DNA of 34,079 bases, from positions 1 to 34,079 of the forward strand of contig JAJDDE010000076.1 of assembly GCA_029260475.1 (NCBI GenBank). Direction: 5' to 3'. How positions within the stretch are numbered: the first letter of the stretch is position 1; the number at the start of each line of letters is the position of its first letter. Origin of the DNA: Phycisphaerales bacterium (GTDB taxonomy: Bacteria > Planctomycetota > Phycisphaerae > Phycisphaerales > UBA1924). Under the pieces are notes generated by a model. That model ran no database searches and was not told the DNA's origin. It worked only from the letters and a program-made list of their open reading frames with translations. Positions 6,217 through 21,093 of the stretch are shown here, in pieces. Position numbers and translations under genes: made by a program.

Positions 6217-6691
6217 TTCAAACAACATCAATGTCGAGTTCACCCTCAACGGCAATCCGATCTCCATCGATGTCGCACCGCGGGATCGATTGCTTGACAC
6301 ACTGCGCTACGCCCTTGATTTGACCGGGGCAAAGGAAGGTTGCGGCGAGGGCGAATGCGGAGCATGCACCGTGTACCTCGACGGAGTGCCCGCGAATTCC
6401 TGCCTCATCCCGACATACCAAGTGTCCGGTCGCGCAATCGACACGATCGAATCTATCCCCGCCGATGCACTGAGCGACATGCTCGCAAGCGGCGCCACTC
6501 AGTGCGGCGCGTGCACGCCTGGCGTCGTCATGACCGCGTGCTGGCTCAAGCGCCATCCCGAGTTGCTCAAGACACACACCGTCCGCGAACTCATGGCAGG
6601 CAACCTCTGCCGCTGCACCGGATACGACGGCATCATCGACGGCATTACCGACGGCTGTCAGAGCAATTACGATCGTGGGAACGCCTCGTGA
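6209..6691 (+). CDS. Xanthine dehydrogenase, [2Fe-2S] subunit
   Basis: A 160-residue iron-sulfur subunit with both clusters of the family. The plant-ferredoxin-like cluster has Cys45, Cys50, Cys53 and Cys65 (CGEGECGACTVYLDG region). The helical-domain cluster has Cys99 and Cys102 (QCGACTPG) plus Cys134 and Cys136 (NLCRCTGYDGI). It passes electrons from the Mo site to the FAD subunit. It overlaps the end of the Mo subunit by 8 nt and the start of the FAD subunit by 4 nt (GTGA), so the three subunits are almost certainly translationally coupled. E. coli calls this subunit XdhC, which would clash with the accessory factor here, so no symbol is given. Confidence 0.95.
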   Translation: MPDSNNINVEFTLNGNPISIDVAPRDRLLDTLRYALDLTGAKEGCGEGECGACTVYLDGVPANSCLIPTYQVSGRAIDTIESIPADALSDMLASGATQCGACTPGVVMTACWLKRHPELLKTHTVRELMAGNLCRCTGYDGIIDGITDGCQSNYDRGNAS

Positions 6692-7524
6692 AAGTGCTTT
6701 CGCCCCGATCACTCGACGAAGCCTGTGCCTTGCTCGCGCGCGATCCTGCGCCGCGCCCCATCGCCGGCGCTACCGATATCCTCGTGCATTGGCCAGACAA
6801 CCTCAACGCCAAAGCCGAAACCGAAACCTATCTCGACATCTCAGCGCTCTCCGACCTGCGCCACATCACTCGAGAAGATGATGTGCTCACACTCGGCGCG
6901 TTGACCACCTATTGGGATGTCATTCAAAGCCAAGCATGCCGCGACGACTTCCCCATGCTCCTTGACGCTGCTCGCCAGGTCGGATCTGTCCAGATCCAAT
7001 CCCGCGGCACATGGGCCGGCAACATTGTCAACGCATCGCCCGCCGCCGATGGCGTCCCCGTTCTCATGGCCTACGACGCGACCGTTGTGCTGCGATCAAA
7101 GTCGGGCGAGATGGAAGTCCGCCTCGATGAGTTCTACTCCGGGTACAAGCAGATGCAGCGCCGCCCTGACCAACTCATCACCGCCATCCGCATCCCGCGT
7201 CGCACCTATGACACTCAGATTTTCGAGAAAGTCGGCCCGCGCCGTGCACAGGCCATCTCCAAAGTTGGCCTGGCCATCACCCACTCAACCGAAGGGTGGC
7301 GCGTCGTCGCCGCCGCCGTCGCGCCGATGATTCTCCGTTGTAAATCAGTCGAGGCGCTCCTTGAATCTGGCGCTCCTGTCCGTTCTCCGGACGATCTTGC
7401 GCAGGCCATCGACCAAGACGTTGCGCCCATCGATGACATCCGTTCCACCCGCGAGTACCGCCAGCGCGTTCTCGCACGTCTGATCTACCACGACCTCAAG
7501 GGCGTGCTGCCCGCCTTCTCCTGA
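6688..7524 (+). CDS. xdhB: Xanthine dehydrogenase, FAD-binding subunit
   Basis: A 278-residue FAD subunit of the CoxM/XDH-M family. The N-terminal FAD-binding motif RPIAGATDILVHW lies near residues 24-36. The second signature, QSRGTWAGNIVNASPAADG, follows at about 104-122, the usual TxGGNI/SPxGD region. A C-terminal CO-dehydrogenase flavoprotein domain follows. It takes electrons from the Fe-S subunit and reduces NAD or another acceptor. The GTG start at 6688 overlaps the previous stop as GTGA. The frame is open upstream inside the Fe-S gene, but only as an antiphase reading. The order Mo, Fe-S, FAD differs from the common FAD-first layouts. Confidence 0.93.
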   Translation: MKVLSPRSLDEACALLARDPAPRPIAGATDILVHWPDNLNAKAETETYLDISALSDLRHITREDDVLTLGALTTYWDVIQSQACRDDFPMLLDAARQVGSVQIQSRGTWAGNIVNASPAADGVPVLMAYDATVVLRSKSGEMEVRLDEFYSGYKQMQRRPDQLITAIRIPRRTYDTQIFEKVGPRRAQAISKVGLAITHSTEGWRVVAAAVAPMILRCKSVEALLESGAPVRSPDDLAQAIDQDVAPIDDIRSTREYRQRVLARLIYHDLKGVLPAFS

Positions 7525-7527
7525 CCG

Positions 7528-8310
7528 ATGTCAATCGATGCCAACATACTGCACGCCGCAGGCCAGCTCGCCGCAACAGGCCAGCCCTTCGTCTTGCTGA
7601 CCGTTATCGCGACCAAAGGCAGCGCACCCCGCGAACCCGGTGCACGCATGATCTGGCGCCCGGGCGACGGCTTCATCGGCACCATCGGCGGTGGGCAGTT
7701 CGAACACCTCGCGCTCGGAACCGCTGAGCGAATCTTTCGCGATCGATCCTGCACGACCGAGCAATTCGTCCTCGGCGCCGAAGCCGAACAGTGCTGCGGC
7801 GGCGTCATGGACGTCTTCATTGAATACATCGGGCCAGCCCAACGTCTCATCATTTTCGGTGCGGGCCACGTCTCGCAGGCGCTCACGCAGCTGCTCTCCG
7901 CAGCGCCCTTCGAGCTCATCATCGCTGACGATCGCCCCGACTGGAACACCGCCGATCGCTTCCCGACGGCTCAACGGTTGACTGACTATGAAGCCGCACT
8001 GCGCGCTCTGCGCATTGCGCCCGCCGCAACGCTCGCCTGCGTGATGACCTGCTCACACGACACCGACTTCGATCTGCTTCGCGGGCTGCTGTCACTCGAC
8101 AGCCCGCCCGCGTTCGTCGGGCTCATCGGATCGAAGAGCAAACGCGTAAGCCTCTTCACCAGGCTCGTCGCCTCAGGCATCGCGCAGGAACGTGTACAGA
8201 CGATCCACTGCCCCATAGGTGTGGGTGATACCGGCAAGGAACCAGACCTCCTCGCCATCTCGATCGCTGCGCAACTGCTCATCGAGGCAAAGAAACTTGC
8301 CGCCCTCTAG
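7528..8310 (+). CDS. xdhC: Xanthine dehydrogenase accessory protein XdhC
   Basis: A 260-residue XdhC/CoxI-family chaperone that binds the molybdenum cofactor, promotes its sulfuration and delivers it to apo-xanthine dehydrogenase. The N-terminal XdhC domain has VIATKGSAPREPGARM and GTIGGGQFEHLA, then a CCGG motif near residue 90. The C-terminal Rossmann domain has LIIFGAGHVSQAL near residues 108-120 and ends with HCPIGVGDTGKEPDLLAISIAAQLL, a family signature shown here only as its recognisable core PIGVGDTGKEPDLLAISIA. It begins 3 nt after the FAD subunit and is overlapped by the next gene. Length is normal. Confidence 0.94.
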   Translation: MSIDANILHAAGQLAATGQPFVLLTVIATKGSAPREPGARMIWRPGDGFIGTIGGGQFEHLALGTAERIFRDRSCTTEQFVLGAEAEQCCGGVMDVFIEYIGPAQRLIIFGAGHVSQALTQLLSAAPFELIIADDRPDWNTADRFPTAQRLTDYEAALRALRIAPAATLACVMTCSHDTDFDLLRGLLSLDSPPAFVGLIGSKSKRVSLFTRLVASGIAQERVQTIHCPIGVGDTGKEPDLLAISIAAQLLIEAKKLAAL

Positions 8311-8899
8311 CACAACCGATGTTGCGCTGGTTCTCGCCGCAGGTCGTGGCACCCGCATGGGTGGCCCCAAAGCACTCATGCACGTCGCGGGCAGTCCTTG
8401 GTGGCGCACGCAAAGCGCCCGCCTCGCCGCCTGGCACATCCCCGCGGTCTGGGTCGTATCTCAGCAGGTCCGCGACGCGCTCACGCCCGAAGGGGATGCG
8501 CCCAACATGATCACCGCTGAACCGGACGCGCCCATGTTCGCGAGCATCGCCGCGGGCCTGCGGCACCTCGCCGATGTGCCTCCCCGCGCCTTGTACCTGC
8601 TGCCGGTTGACGTCCCCGCCTGTTCGCCCGCCTGCATCGCAGCGTTCGGTGCGCACAACACCCGACCTGAAGTCCCAACCGTCAATGGCAAAGGCGGCCA
8701 CCCCGTTCGTCTCCCTTGGCCGTTTATTGAAACTCATATCAGACCGCATCTTACAAGCCCTGATGCACATACAGACGTGCGCCTCGATCATCTCCTCGCC
8801 GATCACGCTGCCCATCGCGAAGTTGGTGACCCCGCAGTCATCACCAACCTCAATACCCCGGAGGCGGTCGAAGTCTGGCTCACAAGTCAGGTACAGTAA
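8297..8899 (+). CDS. mocA: MocA-like molybdenum cofactor cytidylyltransferase
   Basis: A 200-residue nucleotidyltransferase opening with VALVLAAGRGTRMGGPKAL, the NTP-binding signature of the MobA/MocA/IspD group. LLPVDVPACSP supplies the metal-binding Asp region and KGGHPVRLP matches the GHP motif seen in MocA-type enzymes. It would convert Mo-molybdopterin to the cytosine dinucleotide form. No ATG or GTG precedes the NTP-binding motif, so I take the TTG at 8297, which overlaps the XdhC stop and has GAGG at 8284-8287. Sitting directly after xdhC supports a cytidylyl rather than guanylyl role; the nucleotide specificity is inferred from context. Confidence 0.82.
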   Translation: MPPSSTTDVALVLAAGRGTRMGGPKALMHVAGSPWWRTQSARLAAWHIPAVWVVSQQVRDALTPEGDAPNMITAEPDAPMFASIAAGLRHLADVPPRALYLLPVDVPACSPACIAAFGAHNTRPEVPTVNGKGGHPVRLPWPFIETHIRPHLTSPDAHTDVRLDHLLADHAAHREVGDPAVITNLNTPEAVEVWLTSQVQ

Positions 8900-8903
8900 A
8901 CCC

Positions 8904-10259
8904 ATGCAACGCACGCTCGATCACAATCAGCTCGCTCCGCTCCTCGCCAAACTCACCGAGGCCAACCGCGCATACGCGGGTGTCTATCCGGGCGAACCCG
9001 TCGATCGCCAGCCCGTCCACACCGTCTATGGTGGCGCTCAGCTCTTTCGTCGCGACACCGCGAGTCGCCTCGGCAAACTCGCCATCGCGTCGCTTGATGA
9101 GTATGCCCCCGACGCCGACACCTTTGCGAGCCTCCTCGGTATCGGCCCCAGCCTCGGGCCATCCATTTATGAGGCCGTCATTGCCAAACTCCACACCGAG
9201 CCGGTCGAAGACTTCCGTATCGATTTCGAAGATGGTTACGGCGTACGCCCCGAATCGGAAGAAGACCAGTGTGCGGTCCACGCTGCCGAGGAACTCGCGG
9301 CGGGCATGGAGCAAGGCACGCTTCCACCCTTCATCGGCATCCGCATCAAGAACTTCGGTGAAGATACGCTCGAGCGCGGCGTTCGTACGCTCGATCTCTT
9401 CCTTACCGCGCTCACGGCACGAACGAACGGCGCACTCCCTGCCAACTTCGTCGTCATGCTCCCCAAGGTCGTCTCCGAGCATCAGGTCGCGACACTGGTC
9501 GACATCTTCGAGATGTTCGAAGGCGCGGGCGCCTTTCCTCCCGGCTCACTCAAGATGGAGTTCATGGTCGAGACGACCCAGTCCGTTATCGATGAAAACG
9601 GCGCGGTTCCGATCAATCGCTTTGTTCGCGCCGCACGTGGACGCTGTGTCTCAGTCGCCCTGGGCGTGTACGACTACACCGCGAGCATCGGCGTCACCGC
9701 GGGGCACCAGCGCATCGATCACAACGCCTGCGACTTCGCCCGCCATATGATGCAGGTCTCGCTCGGCGGAAGCGGTCTCTATCTTTCCGACGGCGCCACC
9801 AACATCATGCCCGCACCGCCGCACAAGGCCCCGGATGGCGGCGCGCTCAGCGCTGCCGAGGCCCAGGCAAACCGCGACGCCGTCCAGTCTGGCTGGAAGC
9901 TTCACTTCCAACACTGTCGCCGTTCGCTCGAGCACGGGTACTACCAGGGTTGGGATCTCAATCCAGCCCAGCTCCCCACGCGCTACGCCGCACTGTATTC
10001 CTATTTCTGGGAATCGCTGCCCGGGGCGACCCAACGGCTCAGCAACTTCGTCGAAAAAGTGGCCCGCGCCACGATCGCTGGAGGCGGCGTGTTCGACGAC
10101 GCCGCAACCGCCCAGGGCCTGCTCACGTTTTTCATCCAGGGCTTGCGGCGTCGCGCCATCACCGAAGATCAGGTACGCGCCACCGGACTCACCGTCGACG
10201 AAATCCGAATGCGATCGTTCCTCGAAATCGTCAAGCATCGCGGGCTGTTGGATTCCTAG
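8904..10259 (+). CDS. DUF6986-like protein, HpcH/HpaI aldolase / citrate lyase fold
   Basis: A 451-residue protein that I place with the DUF6986 group of the HpcH/HpaI aldolase-citrate lyase superfamily. FRIDFEDGYG near residue 105 resembles the DxEDG metal-site strand. KMEFMVETTQS near residue 217 resembles the strand carrying the second acidic metal ligand. ARGRCVSVALGVYDYTAS near residue 245 fits the barrel core. Known relatives cleave or form C-C bonds using acyl-CoA, pyruvate or glyoxylate. It starts 4 nt after mocA and ends only 5 nt from the convergent uricase stop, so it belongs to the purine cluster. A role in handling glyoxylate or ureidoglycolate is attractive but unproven. Superfamily placement is good; the reaction is unknown. 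Confidence 0.78.
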   Translation: MQRTLDHNQLAPLLAKLTEANRAYAGVYPGEPVDRQPVHTVYGGAQLFRRDTASRLGKLAIASLDEYAPDADTFASLLGIGPSLGPSIYEAVIAKLHTEPVEDFRIDFEDGYGVRPESEEDQCAVHAAEELAAGMEQGTLPPFIGIRIKNFGEDTLERGVRTLDLFLTALTARTNGALPANFVVMLPKVVSEHQVATLVDIFEMFEGAGAFPPGSLKMEFMVETTQSVIDENGAVPINRFVRAARGRCVSVALGVYDYTASIGVTAGHQRIDHNACDFARHMMQVSLGGSGLYLSDGATNIMPAPPHKAPDGGALSAAEAQANRDAVQSGWKLHFQHCRRSLEHGYYQGWDLNPAQLPTRYAALYSYFWESLPGATQRLSNFVEKVARATIAGGGVFDDAATAQGLLTFFIQGLRRRAITEDQVRATGLTVDEIRMRSFLEIVKHRGLLDS

Positions 10260-10264
10260 CGCTG

Positions 10265-11104
10265 CTATCGCCTCACGGTCGCCTCGATCATGCCGTGCGG
10301 CTCATCGATCGGCAGGAAAATCTCGTTGTCGTTCGGCATTCCGAATGGCGACAAGTCGACAAGCAAGTTGTGATTGTTGGGCATTGCTAGATCAATAGCA
10401 TCGATCGATGCGCAGGCTCCAAGCGCGGCTTCGCCCATTGCAAACAGTGTGTGCTGGACTGACAAGCTGTCATGTTTCGCGAACGTCTCAAGCAGCGCCT
10501 TGCGAATTGCGCACCGCGCATCGTTGAAATCGGCATCAGTACCAAGCGCCCATGTGGCTGTCACCGATGTCCCAAAGAGGCGGTCGTCCGCGTCTTTGAG
10601 TGTCGTAAATTTGTCCCGCATGAAATCTGAAAAACCCGACTGCGTCGTCTTCAGGATCATCCAGTCGTCGATACCCGAGGTGATCCTCGCGCCTTCGCGA
10701 CCAACCACCGCGGCGCACGTCGCGGTCTCGGGCCCAACACGTTGGAAACTGTGATCGTGTGCCACACCTCCAACTTCCATCCGCTCCCACTGCACCTGCG
10801 AAATATCGATATGCGCTTCTGCGATATGCTTGCTCGTCGAAACGAAGTGCCGCCCGAGATGCAGCGCGAATGCTTCGATCGAAGACATCGGGTGATCTTT
10901 GGCGAGCGCGTATACGGTGTTCTTCATCGTGTCCGTGGGGAGCACGCCGGTGTTGTCTGCCTTGGTGTGGGCCGCATCAAAGTCACCCTCAAGCCCGATC
11001 TTCACCGTCAGTTCGCGAACACTGTGCTTCGCCCCATCCCGAAACACCTTCAGCACGCGCACCCGCGACTTGCCATACCGATTCCATCCAAGCGATGCGG
11101 CCAT
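10265..11104 (-). CDS. pucL: Uricase (factor-independent urate hydroxylase)
   Basis: A 279-residue cofactor-free urate oxidase that converts urate and O2 to 5-hydroxyisourate and H2O2. Both tunnel-fold signatures are present: ADNTGVLPTDTMKNTVYALA near residues 49-68, with the catalytic Thr of the PTDT motif (Thr57), and MPNNHNLLVDLSPFG near residues 241-255, with the active-site Asn/His pair (His about 245). Lys12 in YGKSRVRV matches the conserved catalytic Lys. It is the last gene of a five-gene minus-strand operon, 3 nt after uraH. It is unfused, unlike Bacillus PucL, because the OHCU decarboxylase is a separate gene here. Confidence 0.97.
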   Translation of the reverse strand: MAASLGWNRYGKSRVRVLKVFRDGAKHSVRELTVKIGLEGDFDAAHTKADNTGVLPTDTMKNTVYALAKDHPMSSIEAFALHLGRHFVSTSKHIAEAHIDISQVQWERMEVGGVAHDHSFQRVGPETATCAAVVGREGARITSGIDDWMILKTTQSGFSDFMRDKFTTLKDADDRLFGTSVTATWALGTDADFNDARCAIRKALLETFAKHDSLSVQHTLFAMGEAALGACASIDAIDLAMPNNHNLLVDLSPFGMPNDNEIFLPIDEPHGMIEATVRR

Positions 11105-11107
11105 CTC

Positions 11108-11449
11108 TTAACTCCCTCGATAGGTTGAATACCCAAACGGACTCAGGAGCAACGGTACGTGGTAGTGCTCCTCCGCGCGCGCAATCTCAAAGACAATCTC
11201 AACGAACGGATAAAAGCTCGTCGCGCCCTGTGCACGGAAATACTCCGCAACGTCGAACCGAAGCCGATGCACCGCCGCCTGCAATGGGCCGGCATCGGCG
11301 AAACCTTCGACGCGTCCGTCCGCATCCGTGAACGCCCGCCCAAGCTCCTGCCAGTTTCCGTCCTCGTTTACGCGCTCGAGCGCCACCGGCACCTCGGCTG
11401 CCGGCCGGCCGCGCGAGATGTCCAATATGTGTGTCGAAATCCGACCCAT
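11108..11449 (-). CDS. uraH: 5-hydroxyisourate hydrolase (transthyretin-related)
   Basis: A 113-residue transthyretin-like enzyme that hydrolyses 5-hydroxyisourate to OHCU. RISTHILDISRGRPA at the N-terminus and the C-terminal SPFGYSTYRGS tetrapeptide-type signature (YRGS) are diagnostic and include the active-site His, Arg and Ser residues. HYHVPLLLSP carries the third conserved His. The ATG at 11449 shares its A with the uraD stop (TGATG). An in-frame TTG one codon upstream is possible. The length is typical for bacterial UraH without a signal peptide, so it is cytoplasmic. Confidence 0.96.
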   Translation of the reverse strand: MGRISTHILDISRGRPAAEVPVALERVNEDGNWQELGRAFTDADGRVEGFADAGPLQAAVHRLRFDVAEYFRAQGATSFYPFVEIVFEIARAEEHYHVPLLLSPFGYSTYRGS

Positions 11450-11949
11450 CAATCCACCAGCTTCCCAAGACGCAGTCTCGTGATCAAGGCCTGCTGCTCC
11501 GTTGCGATCTTCATTTCCTTCGCGGGAGTGTTCCCGAGGCGCTCCTGCAGATTCTTCAGCATCTCTGCCGCCGACTTCCCGGTCGCGCAGATCAAGAATA
11601 CATGGCCGAACCTGTCCTCGTACGCCCGGTTCCCCTCGAGCAGCGCCGCCTCAACATCTGAGGTTGCCTGTGCCATCCCCACCTGCTCCTTTGACGACCA
11701 CCGCGACGTCGAAGCGTGCTTCGCGCCCGCGCGCTCGCCGATTCGCGGATGACCCGCAAACGCCTCGAGCCAGTCCGCTTCACCGAGTGCAAACCAAATC
11801 GCATCCGCTTTCTGTACGACCTCTTCGTCTGAGGCGAAGGGGCGTGCGCTGATCATCTGGGTTGCCCACGCGATCGAGGCGCAACACTTCAACAATGCTT
11901 CCCGCGCCGTGTCGGCATCTGCACCGTTCAAGAATCGCGCGATCGCCAT
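11449..11949 (-). CDS. uraD: OHCU decarboxylase
   Basis: A 166-residue helical enzyme that decarboxylates 2-oxo-4-hydroxy-4-carboxy-5-ureidoimidazoline to S-allantoin. The family motif GHPRIGER lies near residues 66-73 and supplies the catalytic His. The second half has NRAYEDRFGHVFLICATGKS, the other strongly conserved block. I take the ATG at 11949, which overlaps the allantoicase stop as TGATG; a GTG one codon upstream is equally in frame. It is encoded between allantoicase and uraH, in reverse of pathway order. Confidence 0.96.
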   Translation of the reverse strand: MAIARFLNGADADTAREALLKCCASIAWATQMISARPFASDEEVVQKADAIWFALGEADWLEAFAGHPRIGERAGAKHASTSRWSSKEQVGMAQATSDVEAALLEGNRAYEDRFGHVFLICATGKSAAEMLKNLQERLGNTPAKEMKIATEQQALITRLRLGKLVD

Positions 11950-12950
11950 CACACCGGCCGCCCAAAGACCCGCAGTCGGCTCACGCCGCCGTCCGGATGG
12001 ATGTTCAACCGCACATGCGTTGCAGGACCTTGGTCCACCAATTCCCCGTCGAACGAACGCTCTTCATGCGCGTTGAGCTTGGTCTCTCCGAGCAATGCCC
12101 GCCACGCGGGTCCGCCTTCTGCGTTCGGGACGAGCATCGCGCTCGTCGCACCCTCTGCATCACAGACTTCGATGTCACACGAATCCGGGTAGTTGCCCTT
12201 GAAGTGATTCGTATCAACAACCACCCGCTCGATCACGCCTCGACGCCCAAGCCGCAACACGACCCAGTCATAGCCCGGGCCCCGCCTGCGCTTTGTCTCC
12301 CATCCATCTCCCATATGGTCGGATCGCCCCGGCATGATCAAGTTCCTTGGCTCGGAGAAGAACGCGTCTGAACATCCCATTGGCTGGCCGCCATGCTCAA
12401 CCGCTGCCAAATCACACACCGATGACGCCGACACAATCGACGCCCAGTCCGCCGCCACCTCGCCCCACACACGAAACCGCGCGACCCCGCCATCCGGGTG
12501 GATGTTCAGCCGTACATGCGTCGTCCGCGCATCCCCGGTAACCGGAATCACGTTCTCAAAGTGCGCTTCGATCGGCGTCTTGCCAAGCAGCACACCCCAC
12601 GCCGCCTCCGCAAACGCCTCGTCCGGCGCATCCGTCGCAAGTTCACACCGATCGATCGAGACCGATTCCGGGGCATTGCCGCGGAAGTGATTCGTATCCA
12701 CCGTGACCCCGCGCACAATCCCCGGCAAGCCAAGCTTGATGACGCAACGGTCATGCCCCGGCGTCCTCCGCCGGCGCGACTCCCACCCGTCCATCCACTT
12801 CCCGCGCTCCGTGTACTTGTCCGCCAGAAAGATCCCTCGCCCCGGTTTGAGCAGATTCTCTTTCTCCGCGAAGAAGTCATCGTTCGCGAACAGCGCGCGT
12901 CCACCAACCCGTTCCGCCGCGAGGTCTATCAACTCAGTAAACGAACTCAT
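11949..12950 (-). CDS. alc: Allantoicase
   Basis: A 333-residue allantoicase that splits allantoate into ureidoglycolate and urea. It is built of two repeats of the allantoicase domain. The first has DGWESRRRRTPGHDRCVIKL near residues 54-73 and THVRLNIHPDGGVARFRVWG. The second has GDGWETKRRRGPGYDWVVLRL and THVRLNIHPDGGVSRLRVFG. Each also has a VDTNHF(R/K)GN motif. The internal duplication is plain by eye. It starts with GGAGGTGTC before an ATG that overlaps the allantoinase stop (ATGA). Its urea-forming chemistry means ammonia release would need urease, which is not in the window. Confidence 0.97.
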   Translation of the reverse strand: MSSFTELIDLAAERVGGRALFANDDFFAEKENLLKPGRGIFLADKYTERGKWMDGWESRRRRTPGHDRCVIKLGLPGIVRGVTVDTNHFRGNAPESVSIDRCELATDAPDEAFAEAAWGVLLGKTPIEAHFENVIPVTGDARTTHVRLNIHPDGGVARFRVWGEVAADWASIVSASSVCDLAAVEHGGQPMGCSDAFFSEPRNLIMPGRSDHMGDGWETKRRRGPGYDWVVLRLGRRGVIERVVVDTNHFKGNYPDSCDIEVCDAEGATSAMLVPNAEGGPAWRALLGETKLNAHEERSFDGELVDQGPATHVRLNIHPDGGVSRLRVFGRPV

Positions 12951-14299
12951 GACACCTCCCGATTGATCAACCGCCCATGCGTCGGGTGGATGCGCCCTTC
13001 GCGATAGACCTCAACACCCCGCACAAACGTCGACTCCACAACCCCGCGAAGCGTCATACCCTCATACGCCGTGAGCGCGTGCCTGTGCTCGAGCGATGCT
13101 CCGCGCACCTTAAACGATTCCTCGGGGTGCCACACAACCAGATCCGCATCATACCCGGGCGCGATCTGCCCCTTCCGATCTCCGAGCCCTGCCAACTGCG
13201 CTGGTGCTGCACACAACCACCGCGCGATCTCACCCAGCCCAAATCCACGGAACGACGCTCCGGTCCATGCCGCTGCAAGCCCCAATTGCAACGATGTGAT
13301 CCCGCCCCACGCCGCTCCAAAGTCGCCGCTCTCCAAACACTTGCCTGCGACCGGTGAAGGAGAGTGATCCGACGCGATCAAATCCAATGAACCATCCTTG
13401 AGCCCCTGCCAAAGCCGCTCTCGATGCTCGCGCTCGCGGATTGGGGGTGCACACTTGAACTGTGTCCCGCCGCTCGGCACATCTTCCGCCGCAAACGTCA
13501 GATAGTGTTGGCACGTTTCTGCCGAAATCGCGATCCCGCGCGCCTTCGCTGTTGCGATGAGTGCTGTCGCATCGCCGTCAGCAACGTGCACAACATGCAC
13601 GCGCAGGCCCGTCTGCTCACTCACGCGGATCAGCATCTCAATTGCGCTGCGCTCCGCGGCTGCGGGTCGTGTCGAAAGATACGCCGCATATGACTGCTCG
13701 TGCCCTCGTTCAATCGACGGCGCTTCTGCAAGAACCGCCGGATCCTCCGCGTGCACGAGCAGCGGCAAACCCGCGGCGACCAACACCGGTGCCGCTGCCC
13801 GGATGTCACTCTCTTGCGCATTCTCGAACTCATCGACACCCGAGGGGCTCAGGAAGCACTTGAACCCGAGCACCCCGCCATCGATCAACCCAGGCAGTTC
13901 ATTGATGTTCCCCGGCACCACTCCGCCCCAAAGCCCAACATCGACGCTGCACTTCTCCATTGCTGCGCTTCGCTTCGCCGCCAGGCCCGCGACCGTTGTC
14001 GTCGCCGGAACACTGTTGAGTGGCATATCAACAAGCGTCGTCACACCGCCCGCAGCGGCGGCGCGAGTGGCCGTCTCAAACCCCTCCCAATCCGCACGCC
14101 CCGGCTCATTGATATGGACATGCGTATCGACAACGCCAGCCATGACGACCGCATCAGCAACGTCAACGATGCGATCCGCATTCCCCGCCCCGTCGCGCAC
14201 CCCTTCAATCGTACCGCCCTTGCACAGAACCCACCCCGGGCGCACTCCACGCGGTGTCACGATCCGCGAACTCCCTATCGCCAGTGTTGCTGTGCTCAT
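12947..14299 (-). CDS. allB: Allantoinase
   Basis: A 450-residue cyclic amidohydrolase that opens allantoin to allantoate. GVVDTHVHINEPGRADWEGF near residues 57-76 gives the first metal ligands (HVH). GFKCFLSPSG contains the Lys that is usually carbamylated. VHAEDP, HVVHVA and ASDHSPS supply the remaining His and Asp ligands. DMPLNSVPATT is a typical allantoinase motif rather than a dihydroorotase one. I start at the ATG at 14299 (STATLAIGSSRIVTPRG). The frame stays open to 14461 but that sequence looks unrelated. It is first in the operon allB-alc-uraD-uraH-pucL, each junction overlapping or within 3 nt. No clear Shine-Dalgarno precedes this ATG. Confidence 0.95.
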   Translation of the reverse strand: MSTATLAIGSSRIVTPRGVRPGWVLCKGGTIEGVRDGAGNADRIVDVADAVVMAGVVDTHVHINEPGRADWEGFETATRAAAAGGVTTLVDMPLNSVPATTTVAGLAAKRSAAMEKCSVDVGLWGGVVPGNINELPGLIDGGVLGFKCFLSPSGVDEFENAQESDIRAAAPVLVAAGLPLLVHAEDPAVLAEAPSIERGHEQSYAAYLSTRPAAAERSAIEMLIRVSEQTGLRVHVVHVADGDATALIATAKARGIAISAETCQHYLTFAAEDVPSGGTQFKCAPPIREREHRERLWQGLKDGSLDLIASDHSPSPVAGKCLESGDFGAAWGGITSLQLGLAAAWTGASFRGFGLGEIARWLCAAPAQLAGLGDRKGQIAPGYDADLVVWHPEESFKVRGASLEHRHALTAYEGMTLRGVVESTFVRGVEVYREGRIHPTHGRLINREVS

Positions 14300-14605
14300 G
14301 CGGCGAAAGCATACGCCAGACCGCCATCGCGCCGGTGCCAACTCCGTCAAGCGGCGGGTCATCCCGTGCTGGTCGAGCAGCCATTTGCGCCGCCTCCTGA
14401 CGGCGCTCTCAAAGACCAATCCGGCCTCATTTCGTGCGGCGCACTTCCGTGGCGGCCTCAAGTACCCCCCCTCGAAGCATGCCCATCACGCGACAACAAG
14501 CACATCAACATGCGACGTCCCGATTGCGCATCTCCTGGAAACGGATGCCGGCGACTCTCGGTGTCATACGTTCACCCCTCACGTGGGGCCGCTACTCCCC
14601 CACAC
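14300..14605. other. 306-nt gap between moaA and allB
   Basis: No gene is recognisable on either strand. On the minus strand the allB frame is open back to 14461, and a second frame has GGAGG followed by an ATG (MAARPARDD...) that runs into the allB start in another phase; neither translation resembles a known protein. A promoter for the allantoin operon would be expected here, but I could not identify one with confidence. moaA could also read through into allB. Confidence 0.4.
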
Positions 14606-15667
14606 TCATCCGCCGAGGGAATTCATTGCCACGTTGGGCCGGCGGAAACGATCGGTGCCGATGCCGTGACCGGACTGCTTGCGCCAGACCGCATCCAGGA
14701 TCTCGTCCTTGATCTTCGGATCATCTGCCCCCGAACGGAGGAGCTGCATGAGATCTCCTTCCGTGGATCCGAATAGACAGGGGCGGATCGATCCGTCGGC
14801 GCTGATCCGCAATCTGTTGCACGCTCCGCAGAACGTGCGGGTAATGGGCGCGACCAAGCCGATCCTTCCCGGCGAGCCGTCCGCAAACTCGTACAGCTCG
14901 GAAGTGCTGCTCTTGCTCGCCCGCCCGATCGGCCGCAATGGGTACACCTCATGAATCATGTCATGCGTTTGTGCCGCCGAGATAAACGAGTTGCTCGTCC
15001 ATTTCCCCCCGCCGTCGAGGGGCATGAACTCGATGAAACGCATATCAACCCGGTGGGCCCGTGCCAGCCCCGCTAAGGGCACGGCCTGGCTGTCGTTGAG
15101 CCCCGGGAGGAGCACCGCGTTCAGCTTGGTTTCGCGATACCCCATCGCGATTGCCGCATCGACCCCCTCCATCACCCTGGCGACAGACGACGTGCTGCGC
15201 GTCAGCTCTCGGAACAGCTCTTCCTCTGCGGCGTCGATGCTCACGGTGATCCGATCGAGCCCGAGCCGCCGCCAACGCTCGAGCCTGTCGGGCGTGAGCA
15301 ACGAGCCGTTGGTGGTCATCGCCAGGTCATCGATATCAAGCCGCGCGATACGCTCGATGATCTCATCGAGGTCCGCTCGCGCGGTGGGCTCCCCTCCGGT
15401 CAGACGGACTTTGCGTACCCCCAGCTCCGTACACACGCGAGCAACGCGCTCGAGTTCGATCGCGCTCAGCAGAGAATCGCCGGGAAGGAATCGCTGATCG
15501 GGTTCCATGCAGTACACACAGCGGAAATTGCACCGATCGGTCACACTCAATCGTAAATCATGGACCACCCTCCCGTGCGCATCACGGATGTGATCGCGAC
15601 CCGCCCGTCGTGCAACAGCAGTCCGAGTCCTGGCTCGACCGAAGATGGGGAGTTGGATGTTGTTCAT
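14606..15667 (-). CDS. moaA: GTP 3',8-cyclase MoaA
   Basis: A 353-residue radical-SAM enzyme for the first step of molybdenum-cofactor synthesis, which with MoaC converts GTP to cPMP. The SAM [4Fe-4S] motif is CNFRCVYC with Cys46, Cys50 and Cys53. The second cluster lies in TFCGACNRLRIS...RPCLFGS near residue 290. KVRLTGGEPTARADL is the conserved SAM-binding loop. The C-terminus MNSLGG retains the Gly-Gly tail MoaA inserts into its active site. I take the ATG at 15667; a GTG two codons upstream is the alternative. It is the only molybdenum gene on the minus strand, divergent from the CMD-moaD operon. Confidence 0.96.
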   Translation of the reverse strand: MNNIQLPIFGRARTRTAVARRAGRDHIRDAHGRVVHDLRLSVTDRCNFRCVYCMEPDQRFLPGDSLLSAIELERVARVCTELGVRKVRLTGGEPTARADLDEIIERIARLDIDDLAMTTNGSLLTPDRLERWRRLGLDRITVSIDAAEEELFRELTRSTSSVARVMEGVDAAIAMGYRETKLNAVLLPGLNDSQAVPLAGLARAHRVDMRFIEFMPLDGGGKWTSNSFISAAQTHDMIHEVYPLRPIGRASKSSTSELYEFADGSPGRIGLVAPITRTFCGACNRLRISADGSIRPCLFGSTEGDLMQLLRSGADDPKIKDEILDAVWRKQSGHGIGTDRFRRPNVAMNSLGG

Positions 15668-15790
15668 GGACACAATCGGGCGCTCGCATTCGATTCGATT
15701 GTAGCCTCAGCGCCCGGTGCCACGCCCCGCAGTGCCGCGACGACCAGCACGATACCCACGGCGGGATGAACGGCTACTGTGATCTCAGCC

Positions 15791-15865
15791 ATGGCCCTCA
15801 AAGTCGCCATCCCGATCTTCACGAACAAGGTGGGCCTGCACATCAAGGAGGGGCGAGTTGACTGA
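15791..15865 (+). CDS. Small ORF (24 aa) overlapping the CMD-MoaD start; possible leader or NifX-like remnant
   Basis: ATG at 15791 to TGA at 15863-15865 encodes ALKVAIPIFTNKVGLHIKEG... after the Met. The opening KVAIPIF.NKV resembles the first strand of NifX/NifB-type iron-molybdenum cofactor-binding proteins, but only about 15 residues remain. Its end overlaps the next gene's TTG start, and the strong ribosome site of that gene lies within it. It could be a truncated gene, a leader peptide for translational coupling, or chance. I cannot tell whether it is translated. Confidence 0.3.
   Translation: MALKVAIPIFTNKVGLHIKEGRVD
15845..15853 (+). promoter_or_regulatory. Strong ribosome binding site before a TTG start
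   Basis: AAGGAGGGG lies 4 nt before the TTG at 15858. It is the best Shine-Dalgarno in the region and is the reason for accepting a TTG as the start of the CMD-MoaD fusion. Confidence 0.75.
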
Positions 15866-16460
15866 CCACAATCTCCCCAGCACGTTTAGGCGGTTCGCTA
15901 CCCAATTCCCCGGCGTCGTGGCGTGCCACGAGAACATGGCCAAGGCGGTAGACGCTGCGGGGCCGCTCGATGCCAAGACCCGTGCCCTGATCAAAATCGG
16001 GATCTGTGTGGGCGCGGAAATGGAGTCCGCGCTGCGGAGCCACGTCCAGAGCGCCAGGCAAGCAGGAGCCACCAAGCCCGAGATCGAGCAAGCCATACTC
16101 CAGGCCATGAACACGTGTGGGTTTCACCGAACGGTCGCGGCGTGGAGCTGGGCGCAGATTCAATTCCAGCGTGACGACCACTCCGAGGCCGCAGGTCCAG
16201 CCGGTGCGAGCGCTGTGCGGATTTCCGTCAAGCTCTTTGGGCCGCAGGCTCACGTCGCCAACACCGACGAGGTCCGGCTCACATTCGAACACGACCCCAC
16301 GTGCGCACAGGTGCTCGATGCGCTGGGCGATTCGTGCCCCGAGATCAGTCGTACGTTGTCCGGCTCGCGACTCGCCGTCAACCAGGGCTTCGCAACGCCC
16401 GAGGCAATCGTTCGCGAATCAGACGAGGTGGCGCTCATCGGGCTTGTGGGTGGTGGGTAG
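15858..16460 (+). CDS. moaD: Fusion of a carboxymuconolactone-decarboxylase-like domain with MoaD
   Basis: A 200-residue two-domain protein. Residues about 1-100 form a CMD/AhpD-like helical domain (LDAKTRALIKIGICVGAEME, then SHVQSARQAGATKPEIEQAI). It lacks the CxxC/Cys-His redox pair of AhpD; only the His of the usual CxxxH survives. Residues about 116-200 are a MoaD/ThiS-like beta-grasp domain (VRISVKLFGPQ, LAVNQGF, DEVALIGLVGGG) that ends in the Gly-Gly tail needed for thiocarboxylation. The MoaD part would be the sulfur carrier of molybdopterin synthase, with MoaE encoded 11 nt downstream. No separate moaD is present in the window, so the fusion is probably the working copy. What the CMD domain does here is unknown. 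Confidence 0.88.
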   Translation: MTDHNLPSTFRRFATQFPGVVACHENMAKAVDAAGPLDAKTRALIKIGICVGAEMESALRSHVQSARQAGATKPEIEQAILQAMNTCGFHRTVAAWSWAQIQFQRDDHSEAAGPAGASAVRISVKLFGPQAHVANTDEVRLTFEHDPTCAQVLDALGDSCPEISRTLSGSRLAVNQGFATPEAIVRESDEVALIGLVGGG

Positions 16461-16471
16461 GTACGCAACAC

Positions 16472-16915
16472 ATGGATACAGAGAAGAACATTAGAATATC
16501 GATCACGGAAGGACCGCTCCCCGCACTCCACAGCACCCCCACCAACCGATTGTCGTGCGAGGGTGCCGGGGCGATGCTCCGCTTCGACGGCATCGTTCGC
16601 CCGACAGAAGACGATCGCCCCATCGACGGTATCGCGTACGAGGCGTACGAGCCGATGGCCCAGAACGCACTCCGCGAGCTCGCACGCACTGCGATTGAGA
16701 AGTTCGGAGTGCTGGCGATCACCGTCGAGCACAGCAAAGGCATGGTCCCAAATTCCATGTGCTCATTCCGGTTACAGGTGGCCTCCACCCACCGGAAGGA
16801 AGGCTTGGCGGCCTTAGACTGGTTCATTGATGAGATGAAGCGCGACGTCCCACTTTGGAAACACCATGCCTGGTCCAGCGTGCTCCCAAACAGCGAGGAG
16901 GTCAACGATGCATGA
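16472..16915 (+). CDS. moaE: Molybdopterin synthase catalytic subunit MoaE
   Basis: A 147-residue MoaE that, with thiocarboxylated MoaD, adds the dithiolene sulfurs to cPMP. MLRFDGIVRP near residue 32, GIAYEAYEPMAQNALREL near residues 52-69, ASTHRKEG near residue 109 and KRDVPLWKHHAW near residues 127-138 match the conserved blocks, including the two catalytic-site lysines in the last one. The ATG at 16472 follows the CMD-MoaD stop closely; no strong Shine-Dalgarno is seen. The stop overlaps moeA out of phase (moeA ATG at 16908). Confidence 0.95.
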   Translation: MDTEKNIRISITEGPLPALHSTPTNRLSCEGAGAMLRFDGIVRPTEDDRPIDGIAYEAYEPMAQNALRELARTAIEKFGVLAITVEHSKGMVPNSMCSFRLQVASTHRKEGLAALDWFIDEMKRDVPLWKHHAWSSVLPNSEEVNDA

Positions 16916-18140
16916 TCCCTCCAGTACTTTGCGCCACCGCGCTCAACACCCCGATCTCGCGTGCGCCGAATTGACGGACACACTTGGCGCAGTCGGAACC
17001 GAGACCATCTCGCTCGCGGAAGCGTCGGGACGTGTACTTGCGGAGCAGGTATTCGCCGATCGCGACAGTCCCCCATGCGATGTTTCATCGATGGACGGGT
17101 ACGGCGTGCGCATCGCCGATGCAAATATGGGCCCGCTCCCGGTCTCGGGAGAGGTGCTCATGGGAGAGCGCCCGACGGAATTGCCGCCCGGGCACGCCGT
17201 CAAGGTCTTTACCGGCGGGCCTGTTCCGACGGGGGTGGAGTGCATCGTGCGGCGCGAACTCACCGATGAACGCGCCGTCTCTCGCGATGGCGTCGTCACC
17301 ATCCCCGCGGACGCGGACGATCTCTACCCGGGCGCGTACATCCGGCGTAAGGGCGAGAATATCAAGCGAGGCGCCGCGGTCATCGATCCGGGCGTAGCCA
17401 TCTCACCGGCGCACGTCTCCGCGCTCGCTGCGTTCGGGTACGACACGGTGCGCGTGTTCAAGCGGGTGCGAGTGACGCTGCTGATTACAGGGAACGAGCT
17501 GCGTGATACGGGTGTCTCCTCCTCCGAATTCACCATACGAGATTCCAACGGCCCCGCCCTGTGCGCACTATTCGCGCAGCGCCCGTGGATCGATGTCATC
17601 GCGTGCGACCGCGTTACTGACGAACGAAGCGTGCTGCTCAACAAGGCCGACGGCGCGCTGCGAACAAGCGACGCGGTTGTGTTCACAGGCGGCGTTTCGA
17701 TGGGAGATCACGACTACGTTCCCGGTGTGCTCGATGAACTCGGTGTGCGGACGATCTTCCACACACTCCCTATCAGGCCCGGAAAGCCCCTCTTGGGCGC
17801 CGTCGGCGCCGAGGGACAGGCGGTGCTCGGGCTCCCGGGCAACCCCGCGTCCGCACTCACCACCATGCTCCGCCTGGGCATGGGCGTTCTCGCGAAGAGA
17901 GCCGGGCTCACAGGCAACCCGGTGCAACCTCGGAGCGTGCGCATCGCGAACGCGGACGAAAAACAACTCCACTTGTGGTGGTTCCGCCCGGTCCGCCGAC
18001 GCGACGCCAACGCGGTGGAACTCGTCAGCACGAACGGATCCGGAGACCTCGCGGCGCTCGCCAACTCGGACGGATTCGTGCAGCAAGCACAGGGCAAGAC
18101 CATCGAGCACACCTCCGAGTACTGGGGCTGGACACCGTGA
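16908..18140 (+). CDS. moeA: Molybdopterin molybdenumtransferase MoeA
   Basis: A 410-residue MoeA/gephyrin-E-like enzyme that inserts molybdate into adenylylated molybdopterin. Family blocks in order are SSMDGYGVRIADA near residue 61, KVFTGGPVPTGVECIV near residue 100, TGNELRDTG near residue 195, VVFTGGVSMGDHDYV near residue 258 (the MoCF-binding loop), PIRPGKPLLGAV, and GLPGNPASALTTMLR near residue 309. GAGGAGG before the ATG at 16908 supports that start, which lies within the last codons of moaE. Length is typical. Confidence 0.95.
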   Translation: MHDPSSTLRHRAQHPDLACAELTDTLGAVGTETISLAEASGRVLAEQVFADRDSPPCDVSSMDGYGVRIADANMGPLPVSGEVLMGERPTELPPGHAVKVFTGGPVPTGVECIVRRELTDERAVSRDGVVTIPADADDLYPGAYIRRKGENIKRGAAVIDPGVAISPAHVSALAAFGYDTVRVFKRVRVTLLITGNELRDTGVSSSEFTIRDSNGPALCALFAQRPWIDVIACDRVTDERSVLLNKADGALRTSDAVVFTGGVSMGDHDYVPGVLDELGVRTIFHTLPIRPGKPLLGAVGAEGQAVLGLPGNPASALTTMLRLGMGVLAKRAGLTGNPVQPRSVRIANADEKQLHLWWFRPVRRRDANAVELVSTNGSGDLAALANSDGFVQQAQGKTIEHTSEYWGWTP

Positions 18141-18631
18141 CCGAGCACTCCTCTCGCAATCCGTTCACGCATCTCAACGACCAGGGCGCGGCTCGCATGG
18201 TGGACGTCACCGAGAAGCCCGCGACCGTTCGGCGCGCGGTCGCCGAAGCGGTCGTCCGGGTGAGCGATGAACTCGCCGACGCGATCCGTGCCGACAACGT
18301 CAAGAAGGGCAACGTGCTCGAGATTGCCCGGCTCGCGGGCATCCAGGGCGCCAAGCACACCTCCCTGCTGATCCCGCTCTGCCATCCGCTGCCGATCGAC
18401 GCGGTCAGGGTCGAACTCACCCTCGAAAAGAGCACCGTCACGATCCACGCTGAGGTGAAGACCACATGGAAGACCGGCGTCGAGATGGAAGCCCTCACCG
18501 CGGTGACGACCGCGGCACTGACGATCATCGACACCGGCAAAGCGATCGACAAAGGAATCGTCATCGAGCGCATCCGTCTCCTCTCAAAGACCGGCGGGAA
18601 AAGCGGCGACTATCTCGCACCGAGTCTCTGA
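18137..18631 (+). CDS. moaC: Cyclic pyranopterin monophosphate synthase MoaC
   Basis: A 164-residue MoaC that works after MoaA to form cPMP. MVDVTEKPATVRRAVAEA near residue 22, KHTSLLIPLCHPLPID near residue 73 (active-site His and the CHPL motif), TGVEMEALTAVTTAALTIID near residue 115 and IRLLSKTGGKSGDY at the end are all intact. The start is a GTG overlapping the moeA stop as GTGA, which implies coupled translation. Confidence 0.97.
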   Translation: MTEHSSRNPFTHLNDQGAARMVDVTEKPATVRRAVAEAVVRVSDELADAIRADNVKKGNVLEIARLAGIQGAKHTSLLIPLCHPLPIDAVRVELTLEKSTVTIHAEVKTTWKTGVEMEALTAVTTAALTIIDTGKAIDKGIVIERIRLLSKTGGKSGDYLAPSL

Positions 18632-18668: not shown

Positions 18669-19262
18669 ATGGACCGTCTCTCCCCACCGATCACCGTCAC
18701 CGTGCTCACCGTGTCAGACCGGTGTTCCCGCGGCGAAACCACCGACACCTCCGGACCCGGCCTCCAGGACATCTGTCGCGATCAACTCGGCGCCACGGTC
18801 ATCGGCACGCGGTGTGTCCCCGACGAGCCGGCCGACATCACAGAGGCAATCCGCAATTGGGCTTTGCAAGGCGTGTGTGGGGGTCAGCACGCGCGTGTGA
18901 AACCGGATCTCATCATCACCACCGGGGGCACCGGCCTCGCCCCGCGCGACGTGACCCCCGAGGCCACGGCGTCCGTCTTAGAACGCCGGCACCCCGCCCT
19001 GCTCGAACTCGCTCGGTTGCGCTGCTATCAGATCACCCCGCGGACGTTCCTCTCGCGGGGTGAGTGCGGGACCCTCGCGCGTTCCCTCATCATCAACCTC
19101 CCCGGTTCTGTGCGCGGCAGTTCCGAGACGCTCGGCGCCATACTCGACATCCTCCCACACGCCATCGAGACCCTCCGTGGCGATGTCCAGGACGACGGCA
19201 GAACGGATGTCACGCCGACAACCGGAAGAGTCATCCAGCATCACGACAAGGGCGGGGCGTGA
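18669..19262 (+). CDS. mogA: Molybdopterin adenylyltransferase (MogA/MoaB family)
   Basis: A 197-residue MogA/MoaB-family protein that would adenylylate molybdopterin before MoeA acts. VTVLTVSDRCSRGETTDTSG opens the fold, IITTGGTGLAPRDVTPEAT near residues 78-96 is the molybdopterin-binding signature, and INLPGSVRGSSETL near residue 141 is the second family motif. It starts 37 nt after moaC with a weak ribosome site; the transporter GTG overlaps its stop. I call it MogA rather than MoaB because there is a single copy beside moeA, but the two are hard to separate by eye. Confidence 0.92.
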   Translation: MDRLSPPITVTVLTVSDRCSRGETTDTSGPGLQDICRDQLGATVIGTRCVPDEPADITEAIRNWALQGVCGGQHARVKPDLIITTGGTGLAPRDVTPEATASVLERRHPALLELARLRCYQITPRTFLSRGECGTLARSLIINLPGSVRGSSETLGAILDILPHAIETLRGDVQDDGRTDVTPTTGRVIQHHDKGGA

Positions 19263-20554
19263 CGCACCGAGTCACCCAAGGCGCACACGACTCCGAGCAC
19301 GGGAACCAAGCACGCTGGTGGGGACGATGGTTCGCGCCGCGCGAATGGGCCGGATCTCTCGCCGACCTGGGCACGTTCCTTCCTCTGGCGCTCGGGGTGT
19401 CGGTCGCGTGCGGTCTCGACCTCGCGGTGATCTTCGTCGGCGCGGCGCTCATGTGCGTTACGAGCGCCCTCCTCTTTCGCCAGCCGATCCCACCCCAGCC
19501 CATGAAGGCGATCGCCGCGATAGCCATCGCAGGCGGTGTACCCGCCGGAGCGATCGCGGCATCCGGGATCTGGATGGGCCTCTTCCTCGTCGTGCTCGTC
19601 GTCACCGGGCTTGTCGAACACGCCTTGAAGTTCATCCCCAAACCGGTCGTGATCGCGGTCCAGGTCGCGGTTGGGTTCAAACTCTTACTCGCGGCATTGT
19701 CCGCGGTCCTCACCGGCGACGGATCGCTCGGCACGGGAGAGCCCTTGCCGCTTCTCGGGTGGGACAGCATCCTCATCGCGCTCATTGCGCTTTCGCTGTT
19801 CATGTTCTGCAAGAAGATGCTACTCGTCCTCCCGCTCGTCTTCCTCGCGGGCATCGGCATCGCATGGGCGTCCGGCGAACTCATCGGCCCGATGATCACG
19901 CCGGCGCTCCCCACCCCTGGCCTGGTCACGATGACGCGAGAGCATTGGATCTCGGGCCTCGTGGATCTCGCGGGTGTGCAGTTCCCGCTCACGCTGCTGA
20001 ATTCTGTCGTCGCGGTCTGCGCGCTGAGCGCTCGGTACTTCCCCGACCACCCGGTCCCCCCACGCAGGATGGCCGCCGGCGTGGCCGGCTTGAATCTCCT
20101 CATCTCACCACTCGGTGCCATGCCCATGTGCTACGGCTCGGGAGGGCTCGCCGCGCAACACTGTTTCGGCGCACGCACCGGCGGCGCACCGATCATCCTC
20201 GGCTTCTTCTTGCTCGTCACCGCCGTCCTCTTCGGCCCGACCCTCACGAGCATCCTGATGGCGTATCCCAGGTCCATCCTCGCGATGATGCTGGTCCCCG
20301 CTGCCGTGGCGCTCATCCGCTTCCTGTTCGATATACGAGACGCCCGCTCGCTCGCGATCGTAGTTCCAGCGGTGCTCGTAGCACTCTGTTCAAACATGCT
20401 GTGGGGGTTCCTCACCGGGATGGCCCTGGCGAGCACCCTACGGCTGAGCCGCGGAGCGCCCGTACTTCAGCGTGCTCCGGGCGATACGCTCGACACTGGC
20501 ACCGTCAACGAAACCAACGCAACCATGAGAAACGACGACCCGGATGCCCGATGA
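19259..20554 (+). CDS. MOT1-type sulfate/molybdate transporter
   Basis: A 431-residue membrane protein with about ten to twelve hydrophobic helices. It has the signatures of the MOT1 family of molybdate transporters related to SulP: GSLADLGTFLPLALG near residue 31, PIPPQPMKAIAAIAIAGGVP near residue 78, and CYGSGGLAAQHCFGARTGG near residue 291. Placement at the end of a complete cofactor operon points to molybdate rather than sulfate. The start is a GTG overlapping the mogA stop (GTGA) after GGGCGGGG. No ModABC system is visible, so this may be the cassette's sole molybdate importer. Confidence 0.9.
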   Translation: MTHRVTQGAHDSEHGNQARWWGRWFAPREWAGSLADLGTFLPLALGVSVACGLDLAVIFVGAALMCVTSALLFRQPIPPQPMKAIAAIAIAGGVPAGAIAASGIWMGLFLVVLVVTGLVEHALKFIPKPVVIAVQVAVGFKLLLAALSAVLTGDGSLGTGEPLPLLGWDSILIALIALSLFMFCKKMLLVLPLVFLAGIGIAWASGELIGPMITPALPTPGLVTMTREHWISGLVDLAGVQFPLTLLNSVVAVCALSARYFPDHPVPPRRMAAGVAGLNLLISPLGAMPMCYGSGGLAAQHCFGARTGGAPIILGFFLLVTAVLFGPTLTSILMAYPRSILAMMLVPAAVALIRFLFDIRDARSLAIVVPAVLVALCSNMLWGFLTGMALASTLRLSRGAPVLQRAPGDTLDTGTVNETNATMRNDDPDAR

Positions 20555-21093
20555 CCTACAACGACCGGCGTACACCCTGGCCGGTGGGAAGAGCTCTCGA
20601 TTCGGTGCGGACAACTCGCCCGGTTTGTATCGCCTGTGGCCAGCTCCGTCACTACGGTCGCTGAGCATGAAAGTGGCTATCACGACCTGGGTGTGCGAAC
20701 AATCGCCGACGCGCACCAAAGAACCGGACCCTTCACTGGTATGTACGCCGCTTTGACGAACACACACCTGTCCTGATGTGGCAACGGATCGCCATCGAGG
20801 GGACTCGTGCTCTCTGGCGACCCGGTCTCTTTGAATGCACGTGGTGCGAGATCCTCGCGCAACACCGCAGCGGCCCTGCACGCGCCATCGCGTTTCGGCA
20901 CGACAAGTGGGAGCCCCTGTTCGGGCTGCATCGGACCGATCTGTTGCGCGATGTGACGCTTCGCATTGAGGCACGGTTGCACTCACTGCAGCGCCTACTG
21001 GATGATCTGCGGGCGTTCGCGGTAGAGCCCCCGGAGGGCTGGCCGAGCGTATTGCAAGTCAACACACCGGTCGCTGGATCGAATCCTGCCTAG
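20544..21093 (+). pseudogene. mobA: Decayed mobA (molybdenum cofactor guanylyltransferase)
   Basis: Pieces of one MobA are spread over three frames. The start at 20544, overlapping the transporter stop, gives the NTP motif YTLAGGKSSRFGAD. The frame then shifts with about 15-20 residues lost, and from about 20618 another frame reads VASSVTTVAEHESGYHDLGV, then TIADAHQRTGPFTGMYAAL. That frame meets a stop at 20774-20776, then gives LVLSGDPVSL, close to the MobA metal motif. A further shift leads to AIAFRHDKWEPLFGLHRTDL and WPSVLQVNTP, the MobA C-terminus. The last residues (VAGSNPA) are a translation of the tRNA-derived repeat, not MobA. At least two frameshifts and a nonsense change make it non-functional unless there are sequencing errors. 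Confidence 0.85.

Follow-up and report, generated by a model that had tools for sequence, protein, structure and literature searches.

Analysis of a 34,079-nt stretch of DNA from a Phycisphaerales bacterium (assembly GCA_029260475.1, contig JAJDDE010000076.1; hereafter the window) revealed one open frame of 200 residues, in which a carboxymuconolactone decarboxylase (CMD)-like domain is joined to a MoaD domain, directly ahead of further molybdenum cofactor (Moco) genes (Table 1). The frame starts with TTG, and its Shine-Dalgarno motif, AAGGAGGGG, pairs with the anti-Shine-Dalgarno sequence at −11.4 kcal/mol, compared with a background mean of −3.4 kcal/mol, in agreement with the preliminary description, which had noted a strong ribosome site. 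The other features noted there were also recovered. The N-terminal half matches the CMD Pfam family PF02627 with 51.7 bits (E value 9e-14, cut-off 23) and carries Met55 and Ala58 at the positions of the AhpD CxxC, so that the redox cysteines are missing, while the C-terminal half matches the ThiS/MoaD family PF02597 with 37.3 bits (E value 4e-9, cut-off 22.5) and ends in LIGLVGGG, leaving a free Gly-Gly, as do the VSGG or VGGG termini of MoaD in related genomes; moaE begins 11 nt downstream. With narrower models, the fusion scores 28.5 bits for the PcaC equivalog TIGR02425 (cut-off 155.7) and 18.4 bits for the AhpD core domain (cut-off 27.8), both below threshold; the MoaD half is a full-length domain, yet its 32.4 bits miss the TIGR01682 equivalog cut-off of 66.15, and it is a near-match to SAMP1 in NCBIfam. 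A 24-codon frame, MALKVAIPIFTNKVGLHIKEGRVD, at positions 15791–15865 stops just inside the fusion start (TTGACTGA overlap). It may be a leader peptide or a chance frame, and a functional role was set aside because nothing points to one.

Table 1. Coordinates of the fusion gene, its parts and the neighboring Moco-related genes in the window.
Feature	Position	Strand	Evidence or remark
moaA, divergent, start uncertain	14606–15673	−	TIGR02666, 330.9 bits, above cut-off
Xanthine dehydrogenase-type molybdenum subunit (3673–6216) and FAD subunit (6340–7524)	3673–7524	+	
Shine-Dalgarno AAGGAGGGG of the fusion gene	15845–15853	+	Anti-SD duplex −11.4 kcal/mol
CMD-MoaD fusion gene, 200 aa, TTG start, stop 16458–16460	15858–16460	+	One open frame
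CMD domain PF02627, residues 26–100, without CxxC	15933–16157	+	Pfam, Foldseek, AlphaFold
Linker EAAGPAGASA; stop codon and intergenic bases at the same place in relatives	16185–16214	+	
GTG (V120) at the ancestral moaD start-codon position, ribosome site gone	16215–16217	+	
MoaD domain PF02597, residues 124–200, ending GGG	16227–16457	+	Pfam, Foldseek, AlphaFold
moaE, starting 11 nt past the fusion stop	16472–16915	+	PF02391, 9.7e-22; sole MoaE of the genome
moeA	16908–18140	+	Profile matches
moaC	18137–18631	+	Profile matches
mogA/moaB-type MoCF_biosynth protein	18669–19262	+	Pfam
MOT1 molybdate transporter, true start uncertain, overlapping the preceding gene as drawn	19094–20554	+	PF16983, 5.7e-40

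The AlphaFold model of the fusion comprises the CMD helices, a less confident linker at about residues 111–120, the MoaD beta-grasp and a looser C-terminal tail. The pLDDT is about 95 for CMD (model 1) and 95–98 for MoaD (model 2, a single chain whose alignment contained two read-through rows bridging the two halves). Foldseek matched the CMD half to the CMD structures 2af7, 3d7i and 1vke, and the MoaD half to SAMP1 (3po0, the top match), MoaD (1fm0/1jwb) and 6jc0, while the best sequence match among solved structures was RclX (7y4r). The structural and NCBIfam resemblance to SAMP1 could mean that the MoaD half modifies proteins in the manner of SAMP/Urm1 instead of acting as a molybdopterin synthase subunit; this is highly improbable, as the half directly precedes the only moaE of a genome that has no other MoaD.

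The fusion gene is followed by moaE, moeA, moaC, a mogA/moaB-type gene and MOT1, with moaA divergent upstream. The preliminary description had seen no other moaD in the window and had allowed for a separate functional copy elsewhere; none was found in the genome, where the one further ThiS-family gene, a 66-aa thiS, adjoins thiG on contig C194, and the fusion is thus the only MoaD of this organism. One E1-like activating enzyme was found, a ThiF/MoeB-type protein on contig C167 (238 bits), which presumably serves ThiS as well. Among molybdoenzymes, xanthine dehydrogenase is the one clear case in the genome and is probably the client of the cofactor. No sulfite-oxidase family gene was found elsewhere in the genome, and molybdopterin oxidoreductases gave one weak partial match; together with the broken local mobA, this is consistent with a cofactor that would not be bis-MGD. 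The mobA relic lies at 20544–21093, where the MobA-like motifs AGGKSSRFG, DLGVRTIAD and LQVNTP occur in different reading frames and Pfam gave no match for the two open frames; it looks broken or mis-assembled, and the mobA of the syntenic locus in a relative (L112/G001) scored as a MobA homolog. A purine-degradation cluster adjoins the Moco operon (3673–14461) and contains the xanthine dehydrogenase subunits, XdhC, a DUF6986 protein, a MobA/MocA-type nucleotidyltransferase (8219–8899), an allantoicase (11949–12950) and an amidohydrolase resembling allantoinase (12947–14461). Searches of the window for a Moco riboswitch or other RNA families returned a single tRNA only.

Comparison with related loci indicated that CMD and moaD are separate genes in 12 of them, with a stop-to-start gap of 0–8 nt or an ATGA overlap. 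The two halves of the fusion meet precisely where the ancestral moaD start codon stood, with V(GTG)RISVKLFGPQ of the window aligning with the MRISVRLFGP start of the relatives, and upstream of it the CMD half enters the tail seen in relatives (RDDHS..., compare RDDHNASSGDGD in locus L077), so that the frame shows homology with relatives both before and after the junction. In Phycisphaerales bacterium OFTM74 (G001; loci L112 and L033), a member of the same family, the gene order matches and one TAA splits CMD from moaD. The simplest account is that a tightly coupled CMD-moaD pair heading a Moco operon would have lost its intervening stop codon and become a single protein. Whole-protein searches of 61 related genomes and of 397 genomes of the class found no other CMD-MoaD fusion. 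The internal GTG has a ribosome-site energy of −3.3 kcal/mol versus a background of −3.4 kcal/mol and an average of −7.0 kcal/mol for moaD starts of relatives. A background-level site is what would be expected after a genuine fusion, and an independent moaD start at GTG 16215 was rejected because its ribosome site is no better than background. The source is a metagenome-assembled genome in 210 contigs, and one substitution (GAG read for TAG at codon 16185) would restore a stop, which raises an assembly artefact with a miscalled stop codon between two genes. We consider this very unlikely: that substitution is the only single change past the homologous CMD end that yields a stop near the moaD start, no single indel doing so, and, were the TAG restored, the 27 nt between it and GTG 16215 would contain no ribosome site. 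The frameshift or mis-joining of two genes that the preliminary description had considered was likewise rejected, since both sides are homologous and single linker indels restore no stop near the moaD start.

To place the CMD half, we collected 80 loci with close relatives, fetched blind to their neighbors, and scored neighboring genes with strict thresholds within 5 kb. A Moco or molybdoenzyme gene was present in 67 of the 80 loci and a Moco biosynthesis gene in 63, the neighbors being moaA (52 loci), molybdopterin oxidoreductase (36), moeA (34), moaD (30), moaE (29), moaC (26), mobA (24) and mogA (23). The comparison set was 19 more distantly related CMDs from the same phylum, of which one has a true moaA next to it and another a generic radical-SAM gene; the Fisher value for this contrast, 1e-10, takes no account of common descent and serves as a description only. 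A twentieth distant CMD, L201, turned out to belong to the linked group and adjoins mobA. The window CMD half is 55–67% identical to free CMDs beside Moco genes and thus is a member of this group, hereafter subfamily I; in a poorly resolved tree of 94 rows and 111 columns, the nearest rows by path are CMD-moaD loci (L074, L075 and others). Subfamily I occurs in at least four Moco gene orders: moaA-CMD-moaD-moaE and onward, CMD-moaA with divergent moaDE, CMD-mobA beside molybdopterin oxidoreductase, and CMD-moeA. Several CMDs adjoin mobA without moaD close by (L078, L079, L085, L093, L113, L140 and L201), most of them near a molybdopterin oxidoreductase. In a myxococcal metagenome-assembled genome labelled Deltaproteobacteria (L109, 7560–10315), an aldehyde ferredoxin oxidoreductase (AOR) gene, a ThiS/MoaD-like gene and then a CMD gene stand in a row, which suggests that CMD is also linked with pterin enzymes of the AOR type (with tungsten or molybdenum); this locus was nevertheless counted as unlinked in the 5-kb tally. 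Three unlinked CMD homologs (L152, L106 and L119) have a common neighbor that by eye resembles elongation factor P, and a CMD on a Cupriavidus plasmid (33% identical) has no Moco genes nearby.

This pattern bears on what the CMD half may do. The preliminary description had regarded it as a helical oligomerizing domain that could enlarge the molybdopterin synthase assembly or recruit a sulfur donor; the analysis yielded nothing that specifically favors either idea. The relatives contradict the view of an oligomerizing module newly added to MoaD: in them CMD stands alone, and its links to moaA, mobA, moeA and molybdoenzyme genes are no less frequent than those to moaD. The fusion is therefore better seen as a consequence of the two genes having been neighbors, and what calls for explanation is the Moco-linked CMD gene itself. 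A CMD trimer or hexamer could still arrange MoaD-MoaE into a larger particle, given that the nearest solved CMDs (2af7, 1vke and 7y4r) are multi-chain depositions and that AlphaFold predicts two separate domains with a short linker; however, free CMD accompanies moaA, mobA and moeA just as well at loci where no moaD adjoins it, so that MoaD scaffolding cannot be its general role, and we regard this arrangement as improbable. Somewhat less probable again is that CMD acts as a general AhpD-like antioxidant shielding those Moco enzymes that are sensitive to oxygen, for example the radical-SAM protein MoaA. The frequency of moaA as the commonest immediate neighbor would suit such a role, as would the two or three distant CMDs that adjoin radical-SAM genes and the annotation of several solved CMDs as oxygen-detoxifying, but the redox CxxC is missing across the whole subfamily and the AhpD core score falls below its cut-off. 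The distantly related planctomycete CMD genes next to radical-SAM genes are those of L182, L184 and L199.

The association with Moco genes is not limited to one close-knit group, as there is a second subfamily of CMDs (subfamily II, 34–41% identical to the window CMD), whose genes in most of the loci inspected lie immediately ahead of moeA or are flanked by moeA on one side and divergent moaDE on the other. Subfamily I or II, assigned by our own reading of the matches, was present in 26 of the 61 related genomes, and moaE was found in 25 of these 26 carriers compared with 14 of the 35 non-carriers (Fisher p = 3e-6, uncorrected for phylogeny). The one carrier without moaE (G025) is a fragmented genome, 81% complete, in which moaA adjoins the CMD gene. 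Conversely, 14 of the 39 moaE-bearing relatives have no such CMD, which indicates that Moco synthesis can proceed without it.

Analysis of conserved positions revealed that Lys46, Glu56, His62 and Trp98 show little or no variation in either subfamily, while His24, Arg60, Arg64 and Trp96 are conserved specifically in subfamily I. Ala58 occurs in 99% of the subfamily, and no Cys pair occurs anywhere in it; PcaC-type CMD members need no redox CxxC. Cys50 was rejected as a catalytic residue, being less than 90% conserved in subfamily I. The window CMD deviates at four near-invariant sites (L55M, R64Q, R65S and P90H), suggesting that the CMD half may be drifting within the fusion. The fusion could accordingly be a neutral accident in which the CMD half is decaying baggage and only MoaD matters, a reading in keeping with its restriction to a single genome in the searches above, with the window CMD being one of those that, of the 81 compared, deviate most at invariant sites (R64, R65 and P90 lost) and with the relic mobA nearby, as if the Moco cluster were shedding parts. 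We consider it unlikely, though less so than the antioxidant and particle readings, since the CMD half is 63–67% identical to free homologs, retains His24, Lys46, Glu56, His62 and Trp98, is predicted to adopt the full CMD fold, and lies in an uninterrupted frame behind the strongest ribosome site among those tested in the operon. Comparison with the G001 operon showed CMD to be the best conserved product (65% identity), followed by MoaC (56%), MoaE (50%), MoaD (41%) and MoeA (40%).

Taken together, the fusion is probably an ordinary sulfur-carrier MoaD made in a 1:1 ratio with a conserved Moco-synthesis accessory whose association with the pathway is far older than the fusion itself. In the proposed mechanism, the MoaD half would work as usual: its C-terminal Gly-Gly would be adenylated and thiocarboxylated, dock into MoaE and hand sulfur to cPMP to give molybdopterin, and the resulting cofactor would go to the xanthine dehydrogenase encoded in the same window. 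Because the extension is N-terminal and leaves the Gly-Gly tail free, no cleavage of the fusion would be needed. The CMD half would be a non-redox accessory of Moco synthesis, older than the fusion and now held at 1:1 with MoaD. In the most speculative step, its pocket, the one usual for CMD proteins, would bind or shield a pterin-phosphate intermediate, with Lys46, His62 and Trp98 and, in subfamily I, His24, Arg60, Arg64 and Trp96 as candidate residues; this is our guess, favored because a CMD pocket surrounded by His, Lys, Arg and Trp residues would suit such a ligand. A broader proposal, which we put forward tentatively as possible rather than probable, is that the CMD subfamily is an unrecognized component of Mo/W-cofactor synthesis, either an enzyme acting on a pterin intermediate or a carrier, that entered several Planctomycetota Moco gene orders and was joined to MoaD here. 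The earlier interpretation holds in part. Although its architecture is new, the fusion represents a minor event, and it is the group of CMDs linked to Moco genes that deserves further attention. The Moco pathway counts as solved and nearly universal; a small CMD protein that stands beside Moco genes in most carriers, tracks Moco capacity, outconserves the neighboring canonical enzymes and has in one genome become fused with MoaD points to an accessory step unseen in model organisms, and offers a clear, easily tested gene.

Searches of the open-access literature for a link between CMD and moaD, Moco biosynthesis, moaA or aldehyde ferredoxin oxidoreductase found none, although an earlier description may exist; matches on related CMD/Moco terms were few and look incidental (PMC9431491 was checked). 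The text of a 2006 survey of MoaD neighborhoods and fusions names neither CMD nor AhpD (PMC1779556). Among known MoaD fusions, MoaX of Mycobacterium tuberculosis joins MoaD to MoaE, with MoaD at the N-terminus and cleavage after Gly82 freeing the Gly-Gly (PMC4326299). It resembles the window fusion in joining MoaD to another Moco-operon product, whereas the window protein carries MoaD at its C-terminus, with a tail that is free from the start, and the N-terminal MoaD of MoaX needs cleavage. The aldehyde ferredoxin oxidoreductase-MoaD fusion of Azoarcus (PMC1779556) likewise has a C-terminal MoaD with a free Gly-Gly and a partner from the same gene neighborhood, but that partner is a whole enzyme. 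The CMD half has its fold and family (PF02627) in common with PcaC-type proteins, including 2af7, the gamma-carboxymuconolactone decarboxylase of Methanothermobacter; it differs in falling below the PcaC equivalog cut-off and in its Moco, not aromatic-degradation, neighborhood. AhpD-type CMDs and RclX (7y4r) have the CMD fold in common with it, with a CxxC redox pair that is absent from the fusion. The unfused L112/G001 locus contains CMD, moaD, moaE, moeA, moaC, mogA, MOT1, mobA and a divergent moaA, and differs from the window in the single TAA that stands between CMD and moaD.
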